Assembly: GCA_007753915.1 (NCBI GenBank)
Contig: CP036352.1
Location: 4,155,306 to 4,219,305 of the forward strand
Source of the DNA: Phycisphaerae bacterium RAS2
Lineage (GTDB): Bacteria > Planctomycetota > Phycisphaerae > UBA1845 > UTPLA1
Reading direction: 5' to 3'
DNA: 64,000 nucleotides
Shown: one piece after another, positions 29,443-60,895 of the stretch
Layout: the number at the start of each line of letters is the position of its first letter
Numbering within the stretch: the stretch's first letter is position 1
Translations under genes and position numbers: made by a program
The notes under the pieces: model-generated
What the model was told of the DNA's origin: nothing
Seen by the model: only the letters and a program-made list of their open reading frames with translations
Database searches by the model: none

Positions 29443-29937
29443 CTACGTCAAGAACGCCTCGATCGTCTCGCGCGCACAGCCGGCAAGATCCTCTGAACAA
29501 GCGAGTTCAATGAACTCGTCGTGCGAAGACCTGAACAGGAAGCGGTGCTGGTCATCGGCGAAAATCGCATCCCATAGAAAATAGACGAAAATATCTAATA
29601 TGCACTCCAAGGCCGCTCGCTCCGACAGGGGCATGATCTGGCCAGGCGCCTCATGTATCGGACGATTCTCTCCCAGCGTGGCTCGAACGCGCGAGAAGAG
29701 ATCCATGTTCTCATTTGATGGCCACACACCCCAAGTTGTAACATGAAGCAAGCCGATCCCATCCGACGGAAGCCATGAAAGGACGTGCTTGACGAACGAC
29801 GTGCGGCGACCGGCATCAGAAGGCACGGGAATCCTCTGGTGAAAGGGAAATGCTGATTCAAGAGGAGCGTGGTACCCATGCGTTGATAACCACTGCGTAG
29901 CAGCTTCGCGCGTCACGCCAATGAACTCTGGTTCCAA
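29443..29937 (-). CDS. Conserved hypothetical protein in a lower-GC accessory stretch
   Basis: A TTG start is supported by AAAGGA about nine bases upstream; no ATG precedes the conserved part. The 164-aa product has no signal or membrane segment. Readable motifs are WPSNENMDLFSRVRATLGENRPIHEAPGQIM, FVYFLWDAIFADDQ and RSSHDEFIELA; I have seen this DLF..R...GE....PG...WD....SHDE pattern in scattered small hypothetical proteins, with no known function. Base composition is visibly lower in GC than its neighbours, suggesting recent arrival. Confidence 0.65.
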   Translation of the reverse strand: MEPEFIGVTREAATQWLSTHGYHAPLESAFPFHQRIPVPSDAGRRTSFVKHVLSWLPSDGIGLLHVTTWGVWPSNENMDLFSRVRATLGENRPIHEAPGQIMPLSERAALECILDIFVYFLWDAIFADDQHRFLFRSSHDEFIELACSEDLAGCARETIEAFLT

Positions 29938-30036
29938 CTTTCAATTCCTTTCTGACATGAATGCCGATGGTGAAGGTTGCGCGGCCAAGGTATCAAATGG
30001 GCTGATGTAGGACAAGGTGCCTTATTCAATGAAAGT

Positions 30037-30654
30037 CTACGGGCTACATCGCCTCAAGGTGCCCATTCGAACGAAGTTCCGATCGGCCTGGGCGGCCATG
30101 CAATCAAAATACCGCAGCGTTCCATCCTCATTATGCGAAACGGATACGAACCAAATCATCGCCGGCTTTGCCGGATCGTCCATGCGGGTCATCTTCACCA
30201 TCAGTCCGCTCTCTTTAGTTTTGTATTCAGACCATTGCACTTCATGGTGCACGGGAAAATCCAATTCCAGCATGTAGAAGACGTCACCGACTCGTTGCAA
30301 CTTGTTAAAAATGGTATCGCCAAACATTACAAATTGTGAGAAGTCCAAAGTTCCATCGTCACGAAAAGTAAGCTTGAGTTTCGTTTGATCGGATGGCTGA
30401 GTTGTCGGAGGCACCACAACGTCAATGCCCGACGGAGTGAGCCATCCCTCCGTAACTTCTTCAAACTCCCATGTTCCTGTGAGAAGCGATTTCGGTGCGT
30501 TGCAAGCAACCGCCGTTAACTGGACGAACAGCACCAAGACGATGGCCTTCCGTTGCCAAGCGATGAGTAGATAGTTCCTTCGCCGTACCAAACTACAGCA
30601 TTCGAGCCCGGCCACACTGCTGTGCACGTTGCTCCTTCCGAGTAAATCGGTCAT
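30037..30654 (-). CDS. Putative lipoprotein, function unknown
   Basis: The core has a hydrophobic segment ending in a lipobox-like LTAVAC, then a soluble domain with TGTWEFEEVTEGWLTPSG, KLKLTFRDDGTLDFSQF and MIWFVSVSHNEDGTLRYFDCMA, which looks like a lipocalin-type beta barrel (weak). The start is uncertain: ATG at 30654, GTG at 30627 (AAGGAG four bases upstream) or TTG at 30591. The frame is open to 30957 but that part has no likeness to anything. Lower GC than the flanks, like the previous gene. Confidence 0.55.
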   Translation of the reverse strand: MTDLLGRSNVHSSVAGLECCSLVRRRNYLLIAWQRKAIVLVLFVQLTAVACNAPKSLLTGTWEFEEVTEGWLTPSGIDVVVPPTTQPSDQTKLKLTFRDDGTLDFSQFVMFGDTIFNKLQRVGDVFYMLELDFPVHHEVQWSEYKTKESGLMVKMTRMDDPAKPAMIWFVSVSHNEDGTLRYFDCMAAQADRNFVRMGTLRRCSP

Positions 30655-30813
30655 GCCCGTACTGAGAGTGACAACTTGCTGATGTTGCAGGCGCTCGGAT
30701 TTAATCGCATCGGAAAAGGTTAGGCAACATTGGGACAGTTCAGGCGAGTAGCTTACATCGAGCGCCCCGTGCCCACTCGGAATGTGCCGACTCAAGACGG
30801 ACTCCCGCCTCAG

Positions 30814-30836
30814 CCCTCTCCCTAGAAGGGAGAAGG
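30814..30836. repeat. Second copy of the CCCTCTCCCT palindrome
   Basis: CCCTCTCCCT, A, then GAAGGGAGAAGG, preceded by CTCAG much as the miaA copy is preceded by CTCACCCC. It lies between the lipoprotein gene and the clpB 3' end. Confidence 0.6.
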
Positions 30837-30883
30837 TGCAAGCTCGCATCGCCACTTGCGACATTATCTTGTCAAGAGCCAAA

Positions 30884-33526
30884 TCAACGTGCTGTAGCTG
30901 CAACAGCCGTGTACTCGCGGTCCGACTGCGAGAAGATAAATCCATCCCCGCCGACATCCACTGTCACGCTCTGTCCCGGCGCGAAATCGCCCGACAGGAT
31001 GTGCCGCGCGAGCGGGTTCTCTACCTCCTGCTGGATCAACCGCTTGAGCGGCCGTGCGCCATAGACCGGGTCGTATCCGTCGTTCGCCAGCTTGTCCACC
31101 GCCTTCGGCGTAAGCGTCAGCGCGATGCCGCGCTCCGTCAGGCGCTCGCGAAGATGCTTCAACTGGATGTCCACGATCGACCGCAGGTGTTCGCGCCCGA
31201 GCCGGTGAAAGATAATCGTCTCGTCCACGCGGTTGAGGAACTCCGGCCGGAAGTGCCGCTTGAGGTCTTCGCGCACGGCGTGCTCGATCTCCGCGTCCGC
31301 CGCGCCCGATTCGCTCAACTGCTGGATGTGCTCGCTGCCGATGTTGCTCGTCATGACGACAATCGCGTTGCGAAAGTCCACCGTTCGCCCGTGGCCGTCA
31401 GTCAGGCGGCCGTCGTCCAGGACTTGCAGCAGCACATTGAACACGTCGCGATGGGCTTTCTCGATCTCATCCAGCAGAATCACCGAGTACGGCTTGCGAT
31501 GCACGGCTTCGGTCAGCCGGCCGCCCTCTTCATAGCCGACGTATCCCGGCGGCGCGCCGATCAGCCGCGCAACGCTGTGCTGCTCCATGAACTCGCTCAT
31601 GTCGATGCGGATGAACGCCGACTCGTCGTCAAACAGAAACGCCGCCAGCGCCTTGCACAGCTCCGTCTTGCCCACGCCCGTCGGCCCAAGGAACAGGAAC
31701 GAGCCGATCGGCCTATTCGGATCACCCAGCCCGGCGCGGCTGCGGCGTACGGCGTCCGCCACGGCGCGCACCGCGTCTTCCTGACCGACGACGCGCGCGT
31801 GCAGCCGATCCTCCATCTTGAGCAGCTTTTCCTTCTCGCCCTCGAGCATCCGCGCGACGGGGATGCCCGTCCACTTGCTGACGATTTCGGCAATCTCCTC
31901 GGCAGTCACCTCCTCGCGTAACAAGCCGCCACCCTCGCGGTGCAGCGCCGCAAGCCTTTCTTCCGCCTCGTGCAAGTGCTTTTGCGCTTCGGGCAGATCA
32001 CCGTAACGAACGCGCGCGGCCCTCTCCAACTCTCCGCGGCGCTGGGCTTCGTCCAGCTCGGTTTGCAGGGACTCGATCCGCTGGCGCACCGCCTTGATCG
32101 ACTCGATCTGCTTCTTCTCATTCTCCCAAGCGGCCGTCAGCGCCGTGTTGCGCTCCTTCAGGTCCGCAAGTTGCTTCTCCCCTGTAGCGAGCTGCTTGCG
32201 GCTGGCGTCGTCCTTCTCCTTCTTCAGCGCTTCGCGCTCGATCTCCAGCTGCATGATTCGCCGGCGCAGTTCGTCCAGCTCCGCAGGCAGGCTGTCGTTC
32301 TCAATGCGCAGGCGTGACGCGGCCTCGTCCATCAGGTCGATGGCCTTGTCGGGCAGGTGCCGATCCGCGATGTAGCGGTGGGAGAGCGTGGCGGCCGCGA
32401 CGATCGCGGAGTCCTGGATGCGCACGGCGTGGTGCGTTTCGTACTTGGGCTTCAACCCGCGCAGAATGGCGATCGTGTCTTCCACGCTCGGCTCGCCGAC
32501 GTACACGGTCTGGAAGCGTCGCTCCAGTGCTTTGTCTTTTTCAATGTGCCGGCGGTATTCCTCCAGCGTCGTCGCGCCAATGCAGCGCAGTTCGCCTCGC
32601 GCGAGGGCCGGCTTCAGCAGGTTGCCCGCATCCATCGAGCCTTCAGTCTTGCCCGCGCCGACGACGGTGTGAAGCTCATCAACGAACAGGATGATCGCGC
32701 CGGCCGACTCCACGACCTCGCGCACCACAGCCTTAAGCCGCTCCTCGAACTCGCCGCGATACTTCGCACCGGCAATCAGTGCACCCATGTCCAGCGAAAC
32801 GACACGCTTGTTCTTGAGCGCTTCGGGTACGTCGCCGGCGAGGATGCGCTGCGCCAGCCCCTCGATGATGGCCGTCTTCCCGACGCCCGGCTCGCCGATC
32901 AGCACGGGATTGTTCTTCGTGCGCCGCGCGAGCACTTGAATGCAGCGGCGGATTTCCTCGTCGCGCCCAATGACTGGGTCGAGTTTGCCTTTGCGCGCCA
33001 GCTCAACGAGGTCGTGCCCGTATTTCTCAAGAGCCTGAAACGTGTCTTCGGGATTCTGCGAAGTGACGCGCGTGCCGCCCCGAAGCTCGGCGAGGGCTTT
33101 TTCGATGGCCGGTCGGCCCGCGCCGCTGACGGTGAGAATCTCCCGCGCATCGCTTTTCACTTCCGCCAGCGCGAGCAGCAGGTGCTCGGTGGAGACGTAC
33201 TCGTCCTTCATCTTCTCCGCGATGGTCTGCGCCGATTCGAGCACGTCCTGCAGCGCGCGCGCCGGCGAAGGCGACGAACCGCTGACCTTCGGCAGTCGGC
33301 TCAACTCGGATTGAACGATCGAGCGAACCTGGTTGACGTTGGCTCCGGCCTTTTGCAACAGCGGGACGACGATCCCCGCGTCGCTTCCCGCGCCCTCGCG
33401 CGCGCCCTCGACGAGTGCGGCCAGGAGGTGCAACGGCGAAAGCTCCGGATGGCCTTGCCGGCGCGCAAGCGACTCGGCGCCCTGCAAAGCCTCCATCGCC
33501 TTGATTGTGAGTTGATCGAGTCTCAT
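30884..33526 (-). CDS. clpB: ATP-dependent disaggregase ClpB
   Basis: Hsp104/ClpB chaperone that pulls polypeptides out of aggregates, with DnaK. The start at 33526 has GGGGAG nine bases upstream. Domains: N-terminal Clp repeat (1-150), first AAA+ (Walker [10 protein letters not shown], Walker [11 protein letters not shown]), coiled-coil M domain (about 405-525, long charged helices), second AAA+ (Walker [10 protein letters not shown], Walker [12 protein letters not shown]) with the substrate loops [12 protein letters not shown] and GYVGYEEGG. It ends in a short variable tail. The 880-aa length is normal. The M domain separates it from ClpA and ClpC. It is divergent from the cytochrome gene; no CIRCE element is visible. 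Confidence 0.97.
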
Positions 33527-54125: not shown

Positions 54126-55889
54126 ATGCCCATGGATTGGGTCATCGCAGCACCGGCGCCCGGCAAGGACGCCCTCGCCGCGGCGCTGCGAATCTCGCCA
54201 GTCGTGGCGCAGGTCCTTTGCAACCGCGGCATCACGGACGAAGCCGGCGCGCGGAAGTTCCTCAAGCCCGCCGCGTCCGATCTTTTCGCCCCCGAACGCC
54301 TGCCCGGAGCGATGCCCGCCGCCGAGCGCATCGTGCGGGCCGTCCGCGATAAAAAGAAAATTGTCATCTACGGAGACTACGACGTCGACGGCGTCACCGG
54401 CACAGCCATCCTTTGGCACGCGATCCGCCTCGCCGGCGGCGCGGCCGAGTTCTACATCCCGCATCGCCTCGAAGAAGGGTATGGCCTGAACGTCGCCGCG
54501 ATCGAGACGCTCGCCGCCGAAGGGGCCGAGTTGATTGTCTCCGTCGATTGCGGGGTCACGGCGGTCGAAGCGGCCGCCCGGGCGCGCGCGCTGGGCGTTG
54601 AGCTGATCATCACCGATCACCACCAGCCGCAGGTTGATGAAACCGGCGCGGTGACGTTGCCCGATGCGCAGATCGTTCACCCCGGTCTGGCGTCGCTCGT
54701 CGCCGATGGCGGCGCTGCGTATGAGAATCCGAATCTCTCCGGCGCGGGCGTCGCGCTCAAGGTCGCCTGGGCCATCGGTCAGGTTTGTGGCGGGCAGGCG
54801 AAGGTCACGCCGGCTTTTCGCGAGTTTCTCGTGGACGCGATGGCCCTGGCCGCGCTGGGGACCGTGGCCGATGTGGTTCCGCTGCTGGGTGAGAACCGAC
54901 TCATCACCGCGAACGGGCTGCTCGGTCTGCGCACGTGCAAACTGCCCGGCGTGCGCGCGCTGATCGCATCGAGCGGCCTGGGCGGGCAGGCCATCAGCGG
55001 CTACGACATCGGCTTCAAGCTCGGCCCCCGGCTCAACGCGATCGGCCGCATGGGGCACGCGCGGCTCGCCGTGGATCTTTTCACGCGCGCCGACGAGGCA
55101 CTGGCCGCCGAGATCGCTGCGAACCTCGAACAGCAGAACCGCGCGCGGCAGTCCATGGAGCGAAAGATCGCCGCGCAGGCGAAGGAGATGGTCGTCGCCC
55201 AGAAGCAGGATGCCGACCACGTTCGCGCCGTGGTGCTGGCGTCAGAAGGATGGCACGCCGGCGTCATCGGCATCGTCGCATCGCGCATCGCCGACGCGTT
55301 CGGCCGGCCGGCCGTGATGATCGCCGTGGACAACGGCACGGGGCAAGGCTCGGCGCGGAGCGTGCGGAACTTTTCACTCGTCGAAGCGCTCGCTGATTGC
55401 CGCGGGCATTTGTTGAGCTTCGGCGGGCATGCCATGGCCGCGGGCTTGAAGATTGCAACCGACAAGATCGACGCGTTTCGCGAGGCGTTTCAGGCCCGTG
55501 CGGCCCGGGCGCTCACGCACAACGACCTCACACCGCGCCTGCACCTCGACGATGAAGTGCAACTGAACCAGCTCGATGAGTCGCTCGTGGCCGACCTGGG
55601 CCGGCTCGAACCGCTCGGTGCCGGCAACCCCGCGGCGAAGCTCGCCACCGGCTGGCTCGATGTCGTCGGCGAACCGCGACTCGTCGGCAACGGTGAGCGG
55701 CACATGCAAGTCACCGTCAGCGACGGCCGCCGCACCTGCAAAGCCATCGCCTTCGGCATGGCGGAGTTTCGGCCGATGCTGCTGGACCACCGCCGCTGCC
55801 GCATCGCCTTCAAGCCGACGCTGAACGAGTGGAACGGCCGCCGCAGTGTCGAGATGCAGGTGGTGGATTTTCAGTTTCCGGCGAAATGA
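54126..55889 (+). CDS. recJ: Single-stranded-DNA exonuclease RecJ
   Basis: 5'-3' ssDNA exonuclease for recombination and mismatch repair. DHH domain: IYGDYDVDGVTGTAIL (motif with three metal Asp), VSVDCGVTAVE, and the DHH-type ITDHHQPQ; the DHHA1 domain is marked by GWHAGVIGIVASRIAD and SFGGHAMAAGLKI. An OB-fold-like C-terminal region ends the 587-aa protein. AGGAAACGGAC precedes the ATG; a second ATG two codons on is equally possible. Confidence 0.96.
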   Translation: MPMDWVIAAPAPGKDALAAALRISPVVAQVLCNRGITDEAGARKFLKPAASDLFAPERLPGAMPAAERIVRAVRDKKKIVIYGDYDVDGVTGTAILWHAIRLAGGAAEFYIPHRLEEGYGLNVAAIETLAAEGAELIVSVDCGVTAVEAAARARALGVELIITDHHQPQVDETGAVTLPDAQIVHPGLASLVADGGAAYENPNLSGAGVALKVAWAIGQVCGGQAKVTPAFREFLVDAMALAALGTVADVVPLLGENRLITANGLLGLRTCKLPGVRALIASSGLGGQAISGYDIGFKLGPRLNAIGRMGHARLAVDLFTRADEALAAEIAANLEQQNRARQSMERKIAAQAKEMVVAQKQDADHVRAVVLASEGWHAGVIGIVASRIADAFGRPAVMIAVDNGTGQGSARSVRNFSLVEALADCRGHLLSFGGHAMAAGLKIATDKIDAFREAFQARAARALTHNDLTPRLHLDDEVQLNQLDESLVADLGRLEPLGAGNPAAKLATGWLDVVGEPRLVGNGERHMQVTVSDGRRTCKAIAFGMAEFRPMLLDHRRCRIAFKPTLNEWNGRRSVEMQVVDFQFPAK

Positions 55890-55975
55890 CAGCGCTCAAT
55901 TAACAGTTTCAGATTCGCAATACGTTAACTTAGTCGTTGGCTTTCTGGGTATATACTTGATTCTCTGAAGCATAA

Positions 55976-57664
55976 TCAACGTTCCTTAGTTGGCTTAAAT
56001 GATCCTTTTCGAGTTTCACCAATCAAAAATTCCAGAAAGGCTACACCCTTTGTTAGAATATCACGAAAGACATGTCGTAATCCCTGTTTGTCAATCCCCA
56101 GTTTTGCGGCACTATCTCTATAGTTTTCGCCCTTTCGATGAGCTGATCCACTGGATCGCAAGCGTTGCAAATCCCGTAAAAACTCAACGTGAGGTTCATA
56201 ACCTGTGACGCCATTGCACGAACAAGCCTTTTCAAGTCGCGCAATACCTCCTCTAACGCCATCTCGTTGCTCGCTTGGAACAAAGGAGATCAACGCCCTC
56301 TCATTTAAAGAGTCAATTAGAATCTTTGTTAGCGCAAGGACAAGTTCATCGAAATCTTTTTGTTGATCAGTTGCAGGCACACGAATACTCTTGAAGTAAT
56401 GTTTGTCGGCCTCTGATAAGGGCAACAAGAGTGGCCCCCCTAAGAGATCCTGACAAGTTTGCGCAAGTTTGAAATACAATTCGTCGAACAACAGCTCGAC
56501 TCGATCCGTTTCAGCAAACTCGGCATTTAGTTGTCGATCAAAAAAGACCTTGCTCACGCCTCCGACTGGCACAATGTTAAAGCTGCGCCAATGAAGCTGC
56601 TCTTCATACGGAAGATCGCGGCCAAGATCACCAAGCCATGCGCACACCTTGTCATCATGATGATTATCGATATACATGCACCAAAGGCGACCGCACCAAA
56701 GGACAGAATCGCCGACTGTGTACTTTGATGATTGGGCAAAATACTTGTCTAAGACTTCTTTTCTGAAATGTACAGCTCGCAGGTAATCGCCTCCAATACC
56801 GTGTTCGTTGCAGGACTTAGTAATCTCATTTCCATCCTTATCTACACCAATAATGAACTCTATGTGCTTTTTCTCTTCGCTTGCGGCAAATCCCCAAAAG
56901 CCACTCTTCTCTTTGGGAAGAGGTGGGATCAATCGCTTTCCCAACAACCTACTGAATGCTCCAAACCCTCCAAGGCCCTGCGAGTCGCCGTAGTTAATTC
57001 CCCAACAAAGAAGGCCGATGCGATGATCATCACTTTCGGCTTTTATATGAAGTTCCTTCAAACTCATTTGAGACATCTCCCTGCAATCGAACTGAATCGA
57101 CAAATGCATTTCTTTAACCGCAACGAATTGCAGTATCTCCCTAAGACGAATTCTCACGCTTTCAGGTTCTACAATGGCCACTAATTCTTCGTTACCGGAG
57201 TCCGTGATCTTGTAATACCGATCTTGTTGTCGGTCATGATACAGACGATGAAACAACCGAAATTCCTCCGAAATCTCGACATATCCCGCACGCAACCCGT
57301 GGAAGTCTCGATCAATTACAATGGGCTCAAACTCAGTTGAGCCATATCGCAAATACTCGACGCGCTGTACGCCCTTCCCTTCACTGTAAACTATCGCCGC
57401 AGGATGACCTTCATGTTGGCTCAAGTCCCAGCATGGGTCAGCGAGGCAATCTTCGATGGAGATGGAGCGTACAAGAGCGCTGTAGAGTCCATAGTCATGT
57501 TCACCGTTAACATCATTCAAGTACACTAAAACTAACTCGTCGAGCTGTGGTTCACGGCTAATTCGCTCAAGCATTTGTCGCTGATAAAGCCGTTCACGTT
57601 CAGATTCGACCAAAGCACTTTTGGACACCAGTTTGCTCCTTCCAAGATCCATCAGGTGAACCAT
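55976..57664 (-). CDS. AT-rich orphan gene of unknown function; possible C-terminal HEPN-like motif
   Basis: 562 aa, in a stretch visibly richer in A and T than all surrounding genes and with different codon choice, so probably acquired. No signal peptide or membrane segment is seen. The middle part carries the readable blocks HFRKEVLDKYFAQSSKYTVGD, CGRLWCMYIDNHHDDKVCAWLGDLGRDLPYEEQLHWRSFNI and DELVLALTKILIDSLNERAL, a pattern I have met in scattered uncharacterised bacterial proteins. The last 70 residues are helical, with LRSSGSAHRKG; Arg503 and His509 have the R(x5)H spacing of HEPN RNases (compare ApeA-like C-termini). No partner gene is next to it. The start is unsure (ATG 57664 or 57652, neither with a good ribosome binding site). 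An RNase or abortive-infection role is a hypothesis only. Confidence 0.7.
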   Translation of the reverse strand: MVHLMDLGRSKLVSKSALVESERERLYQRQMLERISREPQLDELVLVYLNDVNGEHDYGLYSALVRSISIEDCLADPCWDLSQHEGHPAAIVYSEGKGVQRVEYLRYGSTEFEPIVIDRDFHGLRAGYVEISEEFRLFHRLYHDRQQDRYYKITDSGNEELVAIVEPESVRIRLREILQFVAVKEMHLSIQFDCREMSQMSLKELHIKAESDDHRIGLLCWGINYGDSQGLGGFGAFSRLLGKRLIPPLPKEKSGFWGFAASEEKKHIEFIIGVDKDGNEITKSCNEHGIGGDYLRAVHFRKEVLDKYFAQSSKYTVGDSVLWCGRLWCMYIDNHHDDKVCAWLGDLGRDLPYEEQLHWRSFNIVPVGGVSKVFFDRQLNAEFAETDRVELLFDELYFKLAQTCQDLLGGPLLLPLSEADKHYFKSIRVPATDQQKDFDELVLALTKILIDSLNERALISFVPSEQRDGVRGGIARLEKACSCNGVTGYEPHVEFLRDLQRLRSSGSAHRKGENYRDSAAKLGIDKQGLRHVFRDILTKGVAFLEFLIGETRKGSFKPTKER

Positions 57665-57795
57665 GAGAAGCTCGGATTAGATGTGTGTGCGAATCGGTTA
57701 ACGTGGCCCACATCACAAGTTGCGACCGATGAATCGGCAACACTTATGTTCTGTCGTTTCGCATTCATAGGCTCGGCAAATGCCTTTGCAATGGT

Positions 57796-60603
57796 CTACG
57801 GTTTCTCCTCTCCGCTCCTATACTCCCCTGCCGGAGCATTCACCACTGTCACCGGCGCGATCTTTTCCAGATCGTTCTTGATCTGCTTCGCCTCGCCGAC
57901 CACGATCACGGTCATGTTCTTCGGATCGATCAGCGATTTGGCCGCGCCGAGCACGTCATCCGCGGTTGTTTCACGCACGCCTTTGAGCAATCGCTGGAGG
58001 TAATCGCTCGGCAGGTTCTGCGTCTCAATCATCCAGAGATCGCCGACCGTCGCCTCGGGCGTCTCGCGATCGCCGGGGAACGAGCCCACAATGTAGGTCT
58101 TTGTATCATTCATCTCGCCGGCTTCGGGCGGCGCCGCGCGCATCTTGTCAATCTCATCCATCACGACCTTCACCGTCTCGGCCGTGCTGGGCGTCTTTGT
58201 GAACGTACTGATCTGCAGCTCACCCCCGAATCGCCGCGCGTTGAACCCGCCGCGCGCGCCGTAGGTCAGCCCCTTCTCGACCCGCACCGCCTTGTTCAGC
58301 CGGCTGTTGAACCCGCCGCCGAAGATCTGGCTCAACACGCGACTCGTGAAATACGCCGGGTCGCTTCGCGTGATGCTGCGATGGCCGATGCGAATCTGGC
58401 TCTGCACGCTGCCGGGCCGATCGACAAGGTAGATGTGCGTCTGCTTGGCGCTCGGGGCCTCGGGCAGGGTCGGCGGCGTGAATTTGCCCTCGACCTTCCA
58501 GTCGCCCAGGTGCTTGGCCGCGAGCTTGAAGGCATCCTCCGGCGTGATGTCGCCGGCGAAGTACAGCACGCAATTCTCCGGTCGCACATGCTCGGCCCAC
58601 CATTCGCGCAGGGCGTCGATCGTCACAGCGTCGAGGTCTTCGAGTTCGCCCGAGGGCGTGCGCGAGTACGGATGGCCGCCGTACATCTGCCGTCGCATCT
58701 CGCGCTCGGCGAGGTACTCGGGCGTCTTCGTGGAGACGAGCATGCCCATCTTCTGCTGCTGCTGCATGATCGTGAACTCGTCCTTCGGGAAGCTCGGGTT
58801 GCGCAGCACGTCGGCGAACAACTCGCCCGCGAGGTCCAGCTGCGGCAACATCGCCGAACAGGTGAGCCGCGCCGTGTCCATGTCGGCCGATCCGCCCAGT
58901 GAGATCGCGTTGAACTCCAGCGTCTCGGCGAGTTGCTTGGCCGTGCGCGTCTTGGTGCCCTGCGTCAACATGGCCATGGCGGACATGGCCGTGCCGGGGA
59001 GCTTCTCCGTCCAGGCGCCGCTCTTGATGCCCAGCACCATCGTGACCATCGGCACTTCCTGGTTGCCGACGACGGCGACACGCAAACCGTTGTCGAGTTT
59101 CTTTTCGGCATAGGGAATCGGCGGCAGGTCGTCCATCATCTTGCCGGCCGGCGGCTGATCGGGAAAGCCATCGGGGCGCTTCGCCTCGGCCTTGGGACCG
59201 GTGCGCTTCGCGATGCGGTTCTCGAGCTTGGGCGGCTCGGGTCCTTCATCCTCGCCATCCTTGCCGCCAAACAGCGAGCCAAGCGCCCCCGCGACGTTCG
59301 GATCGACGCTGATGTCGATGCGATGCTTGTCAATCAGGTACTTTTTCGCGACGCGTTGAATGTCCGCCACGGTCACGGCGTCGATCTCGGCGAGGCGCTT
59401 GTTGATTCGCTCGGCGTCGCCAAACAGGACGGCATACTGTCCGAGCTGGCCGGCCTTGCTGGCGACCGACATCGACGCGCCGATTTCGCCGCGGCGCATC
59501 TGATTTTTCATCTTCGTGAGTTCGTCCTCGGTGACCGATTCGCTGCGAATCTTCTTGATGTGCTCGCGGATGGTCTGAACCAACTCCTTCTTCTTGCCCA
59601 CCAGCGGCAGCAACACGCCGCCCGCGCCCGCGAACCCGTCGGCCTCCAGCGCGAACGCCCCGCCCAGCGCCACCTGTGCAATCTTCTTGTCCTTCACGAT
59701 GTCCTGATACAGCCGGCTCGACTCTCCGCCGCCGAGAATGCCGAGGCACATCTGGAGCGGCAGCGCGTCGGGATGGGTCATGGGCACGGTGCGATAGACC
59801 ATGCCGAGGATCGGCAGCGGGCCCTTGTCCTCTTTGATCGTCACGGCACGCGGCTTGGATTGTTTGACGGGCGGCGCCATCACCGGCTTGGGCTTCGGCC
59901 CGCCGGGAATCCAGTCAAAATACTTCTTCGCGAGGCCCTGCACCTCGGCGTGCTTCACCGCGCCGACGACCACGAGCGTCGCATTGCTCGGAAGGTAGTA
60001 CTTGTCCCAGAACGCGGAAATGTCTTCCAGCGGGGTCTTGCGCAGGTGCGGAATCTGCCCGCCGGGCGTCCAGCCGTAGGGCTTGTCGCCGTAGATTTCG
60101 GCGAGCAGTTTTTCCGGCACGCGGCCATAGGGGCGATTGTGCCCTTGGCGCAGCTCTTCTTCCACGACCTTGCGCTCGGTATCGAAACCGTTCTGGTCGA
60201 TCTTGAGAAACGCCATCCGCTCGGACTCAAGCCAGAGGACAAGCTCGAGCTGGTTCGACGGGACTTCCTGAACATAGACAGTCTGATCGAACGAGGTGTA
60301 GGCGTTGCAGTCGCCGCCGACGCGGCGGATGTTGTCGAAGTGCGCCGTCTCGTTGAGGCGGTCGGTCCCGCGGAACATCATGTGCTCGAACATGTGGGCG
60401 AAGCCCTGCCGCCCCTCTTCCTCATTCTTTGCCCCGACGTGATACCAGACCTGCACGGCGACGATGGGGCAGGAAAAGTCCTCCAGCGAAATGACTTTCA
60501 TGCCGTTGGAGAGTTCGATCTGCTCAAAGGCATATTGCCGTTCGGCCGCGGCAACGGGGACGGCAAACACACCAATCAAAGCGAGAATCAGCAACCGGCG
60601 CAT
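57796..60603 (-). CDS. Secreted M16 (insulinase/pitrilysin) zinc peptidase, two-lobe form
   Basis: The start at 60603 has AAGGAG six bases upstream and gives a signal peptide (LLILALIGVFAVPVAAA). The 935-aa protein has two M16 halves. The first (about 25-470) is catalytic: inverted zinc motif HMFEH (His70, Glu73, His74) and the distal Glu in ERKVVEEELRQGHNRPYG. The second (about 510-930) is the inactive partner (its equivalent site reads GTAMSAMAMLTQG) but keeps the substrate-grip text GGGFNSRLNKAVRVEKGLTYGARGGF. An acidic, Pro-rich linker joins the halves. It likely degrades peptides in the periplasm. The C-terminus of another M16-like protein lies at the right edge of the window. Confidence 0.93.
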   Translation of the reverse strand: MRRLLILALIGVFAVPVAAAERQYAFEQIELSNGMKVISLEDFSCPIVAVQVWYHVGAKNEEEGRQGFAHMFEHMMFRGTDRLNETAHFDNIRRVGGDCNAYTSFDQTVYVQEVPSNQLELVLWLESERMAFLKIDQNGFDTERKVVEEELRQGHNRPYGRVPEKLLAEIYGDKPYGWTPGGQIPHLRKTPLEDISAFWDKYYLPSNATLVVVGAVKHAEVQGLAKKYFDWIPGGPKPKPVMAPPVKQSKPRAVTIKEDKGPLPILGMVYRTVPMTHPDALPLQMCLGILGGGESSRLYQDIVKDKKIAQVALGGAFALEADGFAGAGGVLLPLVGKKKELVQTIREHIKKIRSESVTEDELTKMKNQMRRGEIGASMSVASKAGQLGQYAVLFGDAERINKRLAEIDAVTVADIQRVAKKYLIDKHRIDISVDPNVAGALGSLFGGKDGEDEGPEPPKLENRIAKRTGPKAEAKRPDGFPDQPPAGKMMDDLPPIPYAEKKLDNGLRVAVVGNQEVPMVTMVLGIKSGAWTEKLPGTAMSAMAMLTQGTKTRTAKQLAETLEFNAISLGGSADMDTARLTCSAMLPQLDLAGELFADVLRNPSFPKDEFTIMQQQQKMGMLVSTKTPEYLAEREMRRQMYGGHPYSRTPSGELEDLDAVTIDALREWWAEHVRPENCVLYFAGDITPEDAFKLAAKHLGDWKVEGKFTPPTLPEAPSAKQTHIYLVDRPGSVQSQIRIGHRSITRSDPAYFTSRVLSQIFGGGFNSRLNKAVRVEKGLTYGARGGFNARRFGGELQISTFTKTPSTAETVKVVMDEIDKMRAAPPEAGEMNDTKTYIVGSFPGDRETPEATVGDLWMIETQNLPSDYLQRLLKGVRETTADDVLGAAKSLIDPKNMTVIVVGEAKQIKNDLEKIAPVTVVNAPAGEYRSGEEKP

Positions 60604-60895
60604 GGGAAACTCCTTGGGTTCAGCGGACATAGGCCCGCGTTTCTTGTTTGAAAGCACAGCGATCAACCGTGCGGGAGCACTCCACGCCTCCGCATCTCGG
60701 TCAAACGGCCTGGAACGCCGGTAGTATCGCAGAATGTGGCTCGAGCGGAGCGACTCGAATCGAATGAACCGTGCACGAAGAGCGGTTAAGCAATAGGCAC
60801 CGAAAGTGACAAAATCGTAAAGTATTAATTTGAAACGACTTAGAGTTGGTCCCTCTCTGCGGAATGGTGGCGACCGAAAAGGCCCTCACCGGCGC
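60604..60895. other. Divergent intergenic region upstream of the M16 peptidase gene
   Basis: About 290 bases before the BlaI promoter. Part of it (60800-60850) is AT-rich (AAAGTATTAATTTGAAACG). No gene, RNA or strong hairpin is visible. It should contain the peptidase promoter on the minus strand. Confidence 0.4.

Follow-up and report, generated by a model that had tools for sequence, protein, structure and literature searches.

Several described systems each resemble, in one respect or another, the protein family reported here. In the EcoprrI anticodon nuclease, PrrC, a HEPN-type effector gene sits within a type I restriction operon, prrC itself lying between hsdS and hsdR, and the closest relative of our gene is found between the same two genes; unlike this family, though, PrrC has an N-terminal ABC ATPase, and Pfam recognizes none in 16 family members. 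HepT of the HEPN-MNT pairs (5yep, 6m6w, 6m6u and 7bxo) is among the best structural neighbours of our protein (Z 5.8–7.1, with 112–121 residues aligned), but is ~130 aa long and paired with a nucleotidyltransferase antitoxin, none of which was seen beside the gene studied here. HepS of the Gifsy-1 prophage (9oik, 9oij), a prophage protein that we take to be HEPN and count as such among the structural comparisons below, appears there at Z 4.9–5.9, a weak match tied with unrelated helical bundles, and its PDB chains span ~190–220 residues against 562. Members fetched from Abi_C (PF14355) carry a C-terminal R-x5-H, mostly as LRNxxGxAHG, and Abi_C gave the best-scoring profile of those compared, whereas no tested family member matches its Pfam model. 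ApeA (HEPN_Apea, PF18739) shares the R/H motif and, according to Anantharaman et al. (2013, PMC3710099), is embedded in epsilonproteobacterial restriction operons; the same study links PrrC to hsdMSR and at least 16 HEPN clades to restriction systems, and proposes, after PrrC, that such proteins are second-line effectors. Remote HEPN similarity is further given for 6 of 21 systems from a functional screen (PMC9519451), and a study from 2026 assigns HEPN domains to 4 of its 31 further validated systems (PMC13092281).

Against this background we analysed a lone gene in a 64-kb stretch of DNA, hereafter the window, together with its relatives in bacteria and archaea. With reasonable though not high confidence, we favour the reading that its product belongs to an undescribed family of HEPN-type RNase effectors with an N-terminal and central sensor half, which would act in infection-triggered defence.

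A compositionally foreign gene inserted between recJ and an M16 peptidase gene

The gene occupies positions 55976..57664 of the window on the minus strand, stop codon included, and an open reading frame check returned exactly these coordinates, this strand and a length of 562 aa. Its GC content is 45.9% (GC3 44%), as compared to 67.9% (GC3 83.5%) for recJ on its left, 62.8% (GC3 84.2%) for the M16 peptidase gene on its right, 63–68% for nearby genes and 63.6% for the entire window; GC3 is 76–84% in the recJ, M16, obg and trpF genes of the window, names that we assume, in part after an earlier note on this DNA. The protein matched no Pfam, PADLOC or NCBIfam model at E ≤ 5, and in a PDB sequence search the single protein had no match while the family profile reached E 0.58 at best. 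The earlier note had described an AT-rich gene without a recognized domain and unlike its neighbours in composition, and these values bear it out.

The flanking genes are convergent, with recJ at 54126..55889 on the plus strand and the M16 gene at 57796..60666 on the minus strand, and in a genome of the same genus (G392), where their proteins are 95% and 93% identical, respectively, they are directly adjacent. Alignment of the window DNA against G392, at 88–89% identity, ends at 55883 and restarts at 57823, so that a segment of 1,939 bp (55884..57822) stands where G392 has 121 bp. G392 contained no match to the 562-aa protein, and the family protein was present in 0 of 13 recJ loci of relatives (9–13 kb each, G392 included). 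Given these lengths and absences, a single-gene insert of ~1.9 kb was either gained here or lost in G392, and the base composition favours gain. The earlier proposal of an acquired gene inserted at this site therefore agrees with the G392 comparison, with the foreign composition and with an archaeal nearest neighbour in the tree (below).

As to how the segment arrived, the earlier note saw neither flanking direct repeats nor an integrase, and we likewise found only a 10-nt direct pair bracketing the gene (55908/57599), no long repeat bracketing the insert, and no integrase among the open reading frames of 50–62 kb, as judged by reading them. No sigma-70-like promoter was found in the insert, and its DNA had no match in a plasmid collection. 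An imperfect 15-nt inverted pair (80%; 55922-55936 and 57690-57704) lies near both insert edges and may be what is left of the ends of a mobile element; it is no better than chance pairs alongside. Elsewhere in the window, a second lower-GC patch (29443-30957, minus strand; 51–53% in 1-kb windows between 29501 and 31000) comprises the frames 29443-29937 and 30037-30957, beside a frame that we presume to be ClpB-like, and is possibly another acquired segment.

A divergent family in bacteria and archaea

Within the window's phylum, 392 genomes were scanned and 10 of them, including the window's own, had a family match. The closest relative (L012, 53% identity) came from a scan of species genomes, which detects close relatives only, and lies on a 3.3-kb contig of an archaeal (Methanosaeta) metagenome bin, the binning of which is not certain. 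Plasmid searches returned 29 records with a family match, from Pseudomonas, Rhodococcus, Streptomyces, four haloarchaeal genera, Nostoc, a Fusobacteria bacterium, Shinella, Agrobacterium, Ensifer, Rhizobium, Cupriavidus, Acinetobacter and Moraxella; a plasmid collection was the target here, hence these copies give no frequency. In E. coli, a chromosomal copy occurs in 11 of 5,426 complete genomes, within a P2-like prophage in both of the two genomes inspected; the E. coli prophage member has the accession WP_052318713. Phage records yielded no match for three query proteins, and scans of viral contigs a single contig (L024), whose protein is identical to the member in the prophage of E. coli S42.

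Evolutionarily, a maximum-likelihood tree of 29 rows pairs the window protein with the Methanosaeta protein (support 100/99), and a seven-row clade (95/95) holds this pair together with five rows that are all from genomes of the window's phylum; the 276-aa protein L016, present in the 32-row alignment, is absent from this tree. Because the pair is nested among rows of the window's phylum, the tree makes gene transfer between the window's and Methanosaeta lineages likely, in either direction.

The family is divergent and spans bacteria and archaea. At E ≤ 1, PADLOC matched none of the members of a 16-row alignment; the only Pfam and NCBIfam matches were stray ones to unrelated families, in one or two of these 16 (best E 0.013 and 0.002, respectively), and PHROGs gave nothing below E 0.06 in five members. 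Literature searches with two family protein accessions and two locus tags found no paper, nor did we recognize any that describes the family, supplementary tables lying outside the scope of the search. Some copies appear damaged: L034 has three internal stop codons, and at L019:8043-12574, in Moraxella osloensis, all that persists of a family member is its end, beside IS66 genes, after which comes a protein of 1,384 aa that weakly matches NPHP3_N.

An invariant arginine–histidine pair in a predicted helical C-terminus

The earlier note built its case on a C-terminal Arg503-x5-His509, read as the Rx4-6H motif of HEPN RNases. The motif is present as it said (R503-SSGSA-H509, 56138..56158, minus strand), and we predict it to be catalytic, but at least one Rx4-6H occurs in 99.3% of 2,000 shuffles of the 562-aa protein; because of this rate, the bare motif is no evidence for HEPN membership and we rejected it as such. 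It is family-wide conservation of the R/H pair, rather than the bare motif, that carries the evidence. In the 32-row alignment, all 30 non-duplicate rows that cover the site, the window row included, have both residues, a count made without L025 (identical to L024) and without L011, a member that terminates ahead of the site; conservation counts also leave out L007 and L034 (internal stop codons) and the pieces L019, L023 and L083. Among columns covered by at least 25 rows, only R503, H509, F300 and the start methionine are invariant, in a family whose most distant rows (of the 16-row alignment) are 19–21% identical to the window protein. The spacing from R to H is x4 or x5 across rows, and the window protein's other Rx4-6H, R136-H143, is not conserved in relatives.

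The rest of the protein divides into two parts. Residues 1–384 (56513..57664, minus strand), which we presume to be the sensor or regulator, have no relevant family match and low AlphaFold2 confidence (pLDDT mostly <50, from a 3-sequence alignment). They include the best-conserved central block, residues 296–370 (56555..56779, minus strand), in which F300 is invariant, V304 and W359 are conserved in 97% of rows, L351, E355 and P366 in 94%, and N363 in 91%. Residues 385–562 (55979..56512, minus strand) are predicted to form an all-helical, HEPN-like domain. The full-length model has a mean pLDDT of 48.8 (3 sequences) and is better over residues 391–560, which are all-helical with block means of 58–92; modelled separately, residues 375–562 reach pLDDT 83.8 and pTM 0.82, again all-helical. 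In the model, R503 lies near the end of helix 490–506 and H509 in the following loop, where residues 508–510 around H509 are the least confident part (pLDDT <50).

Structural comparison of the C-terminus with VIA-align placed HEPN proteins in 13 of 50 rows (ranks 2–6, 8, 9, 13, 14, 16, 24, 28 and 43; Z 4.5–6.7), a count in which 1wwp and 1jog are assigned to HEPN after a table in PMC3710099, and which becomes 14 if the MtlR complex 6kcr at rank 34 is included. With the full model, the top two rows were HepT (Z 7.1 and 7.0). The top row for the C-terminus, though, was adenylosuccinate lyase (Z 7.8), vinculin-type, gp41-derived and designed bundles scored Z 5–6, and by the guidance for VIA-align helical bundles with Z below ~13 may reflect a common arrangement only. 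Thus, in these model-based comparisons, HEPN structures are frequent among the structural neighbours, yet Z values of 6–7 are not above those of unrelated helical bundles. Foldseek returned no match at E ≤ 0.001 in the PDB or a viral library.

Sequence profiles point, if faintly, in the same direction. The C-terminal profile scored 25.4 against Abi_C, in register on R-x5-H (P 0.003; hhalign probability 10% over 44 columns), where the best of 60 column shuffles scored 13.2 and the reversed profile 14.3. Against HepT it scored 15.9, which does not exceed the best of 60 shuffles (17.9) and is itself exceeded by a control comparison of the domain with the family's own middle region (18.0); other pairs among the domain, Abi_C, HepT, Apea, Ymh and two control regions scored 8.6–18.5. 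We take Abi_C to be a putative member of the HEPN superfamily; the 2013 table (PMC3710099) has no row for it. At E ≤ 1, the 16 members matched no HEPN model in Pfam, and specifically no HEPN_Apea, Abi_C or ABC ATPase model. Two other kinships were rejected. For ApeA, to which the earlier note had tied the domain, the profile score (12.7) is at shuffle or noise level and HEPN_Apea did not match the window protein even at E ≤ 5, a weak rejection, since only 3 ApeA sequences were compared; for Ymh, the score (11.1, 4 sequences) is likewise noise.

With R and H invariant, Z values within the range of helical bundles and an Abi_C probability of 10%, HEPN membership is well supported by the motif, while fold and profile only suggest it. 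The HEPN-like C-terminus of the earlier note accordingly stands to the extent that the predicted helical bundle agrees with a HEPN fold and that its structural neighbours are often HEPN proteins, but the match does not rise above unrelated bundles, and the link to ApeA is not supported. One could also read the protein as a DNA- or nucleotide-processing enzyme whose all-helical C-terminus is not HEPN and whose R and H serve other chemistry or substrate binding, and the missing significant fold match and the confinement of profile support to Abi_C would fit such an enzyme; however, R-x4-5-H with small residues before the H, aligned in register with Abi_C, is what a HEPN domain leads one to expect, and we regard this as the least probable of the readings considered.

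Defence-type neighbourhoods of the relatives

Besides the window, 33 neighbourhoods were read: 10 from the window's phylum, that of Methanosaeta, 21 of the 29 plasmid records, and one P2-like prophage found in three records. The eight plasmid records left out either shared their species or strain with one that was inspected or came from Ensifer, and the neighbourhood of L074 falls outside the count. A defence-type context was seen in 18 of the 33 (six adjacent to a restriction gene and 12 with a defence gene nearby or at a cargo site), with two doubtful and 13 in which nothing was counted, by a single unblinded reading that relied partly on annotation alone and excluded ordinary toxin-antitoxin genes. 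The survey that the earlier note had proposed thus does place relatives in defence loci, and their neighbours differ from one another rather than being always the same housekeeping genes.

In six of the 33 (L012, L027, L032, L030, L035 and L036), the adjacent gene on the same strand is a restriction gene. Three of these resemble the siting of PrrC in a type I operon: the Methanosaeta gene (L012) lies between hsdS and hsdR (Methylase_S before it, E 1.4e-34; HSDR_N after it, E 3.5e-16), the fusobacterial plasmid (L027) has the order hsdR-ORF-gene-hsdM, with hsdM next and hsdR one frame upstream, and in a genome of the window's phylum (L032) the gene is beside a frame overlapping hsdR. Another genome of the phylum (L030) has an HSDR_N protein next upstream, and in L035 and L036, which count as one event because they are sister lineages, the gene is behind a type IIG enzyme and a PLD-Snf2 helicase. 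In a separate record (L037:412-3189), a type IIG-type operon appears to be decaying, with the HEPN-like gene whole beside fragments of a PLD-Snf2 helicase.

A further 12 of the 33 have a recognized defence-type gene within ~8 kb or occupy a known cargo site. The gene follows GmtX of a gamma-mobile-trio (GMT) by 80 bp in L013, GMT elements being credited with an abundance of defensive and offensive tools in a title cited in PMC11888443. A CBASS cyclase and SAVED effector are nearby in L020, a type IIG enzyme and, at 5.7 kb, DUF4238 in L017; DUF4238 is the next gene in L014 and L016 and two genes off in L082, and a lone DUF4238 protein from a P2 hotspot gives protection against T7 (PMC9122126). 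DUF499 (L018), DUF262 (L075) and restriction endonuclease (L080) proteins, and a DNA methyltransferase ~7 kb off (L079), mark four others, and on a Rhizobium plasmid (L078:9285-12137) a large nSTAND-type NTPase gene is convergent with the family member. Lastly, in the P2-like prophage, the gene occupies the slot of the nonessential P2 orf30, between S and V, and P2-like prophages have several defence sites (PMC9519451). In the same prophage of E. coli (L025:28540-30288), a DUF262 gene (GmrSD-type in L026) and a hypothetical gene lie between the portal and replication endonuclease genes, a known P2 defence hotspot.

The two doubtful contexts are L037 (helicase fragments) and L038 (a Panacea/SocA-type HTH protein). 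No counted defence gene was present in L015, L019, L021, L022, L023, L029, L031, L033, L034, L076, L077, L081 and L083, some of which have ordinary toxin-antitoxin genes and two of which (L033 and L034) are at contig ends; the neighbour in L076 (Agrobacterium vitis) resembles the arrangement of L078. As a control, three 49-kb windows on three plasmids (136 features) contained no annotated restriction subunit, CBASS, DUF4238 or GMT gene, and one each of a PD-(D/E)XK protein, a PRTRC ThiF protein, a RES-domain protein and a generic methyltransferase, a comparison that is small and judged by annotated names.

These contexts bear on two alternatives. The protein could be a restriction accessory or regulator, a nucleic-acid binder in which the HEPN-like domain is inactive or structural and which tunes restriction enzymes, for instance to protect the host during transfer. 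Relatives inside type I operons and behind type IIG operons would suit this role, and, according to PMC3710099, some HEPN domains probably bind without catalytic activity. A structural role, however, does not require an invariant R/H pair, and neither many of the relatives nor the window copy have a recognized restriction gene adjacent; we consider this reading unlikely. Less likely still is a toxin-antitoxin-like stand-alone toxin, or a plasmid or prophage maintenance factor, with a HEPN RNase domain that serves no defence. That copies occur on plasmids (a plasmid collection having been searched, hence at no stated frequency), that some copies lie near toxin-antitoxin genes and that L038 lies near the Panacea/SocA-type HTH protein would agree with such a toxin, but the neighbourhoods read share no common small partner gene, the gene is alone both in the window and in the P2 slot, the protein, at 562 aa, is longer than expected of such a toxin, and restriction, GMT and CBASS contexts recur.

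The window copy itself has no restriction gene recognized among its neighbours, and its genome has one HSDR_N match, ~1.85 Mb from the gene. Given this distance, a role for the window copy in guarding a restriction system is possible but unsupported. The same genome also encodes an Abi_C-type protein, a 398-aa frame with the motif RNKLGDAHGRG (L121, G000:C1:3829081-3829215), and has three HepT-like matches. The single-gene character proposed in the earlier note thus applies to the window, where the gene is alone, and does not extend to several relatives that are parts of restriction operons.

A proposed infection-triggered RNase effector

Functionally, we return to the reading favoured at the outset, that of an RNase effector with its own sensor. 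The C-terminus would be a HEPN-type ribonuclease with a putative active site at R503-x5-H509, probably completed in a dimer, and the ~380-residue N-terminal and central part would keep it inactive while sensing either an infection or the condition of a partner defence system. Upon triggering, the enzyme would cut RNA (tRNA, rRNA or mRNA) and thereby stop growth or phage production, an abortive mode of action. Members in restriction operons may provide a PrrC-like second line should the DNA-cutting system fail, the likely cue being that the restriction complex fails or is engaged, as in PrrC, whereas lone members, including the window copy, would act alone and would have to sense infection directly. 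The core idea of the earlier note stands in this form, corrected in that the weight falls on conservation over the motif, that ApeA is not the closest family found, and that the family is mobile and occurs both as lone genes and in restriction operons.

More tentatively, and with clearly less confidence than in the reading above, one may speculate that the family, unnamed and cross-domain, comprises HEPN effectors of ~500–600 aa whose sensor domain is of a new type. Its members would move among lone sites, P2-like prophages, gamma-mobile-trio islands and restriction operons of types I and IIG, and would work either by themselves, as an abortive system, or as a second line that plugs into DNA-targeting systems of very different kinds and monitors them by one conserved sensing module.

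That HEPN RNases are tied to restriction systems is a known idea. The family described here, however, is, in the members tested, matched by no PADLOC model and by no relevant Pfam, NCBIfam or PHROGs model, and annotation drawn from these resources would therefore miss it. Lone, prophage and restriction-operon copies unite in one family with one putative active site, and, with an E. coli prophage member among them, the family allows a direct test of whether an effector may switch between stand-alone and restriction-linked defence.
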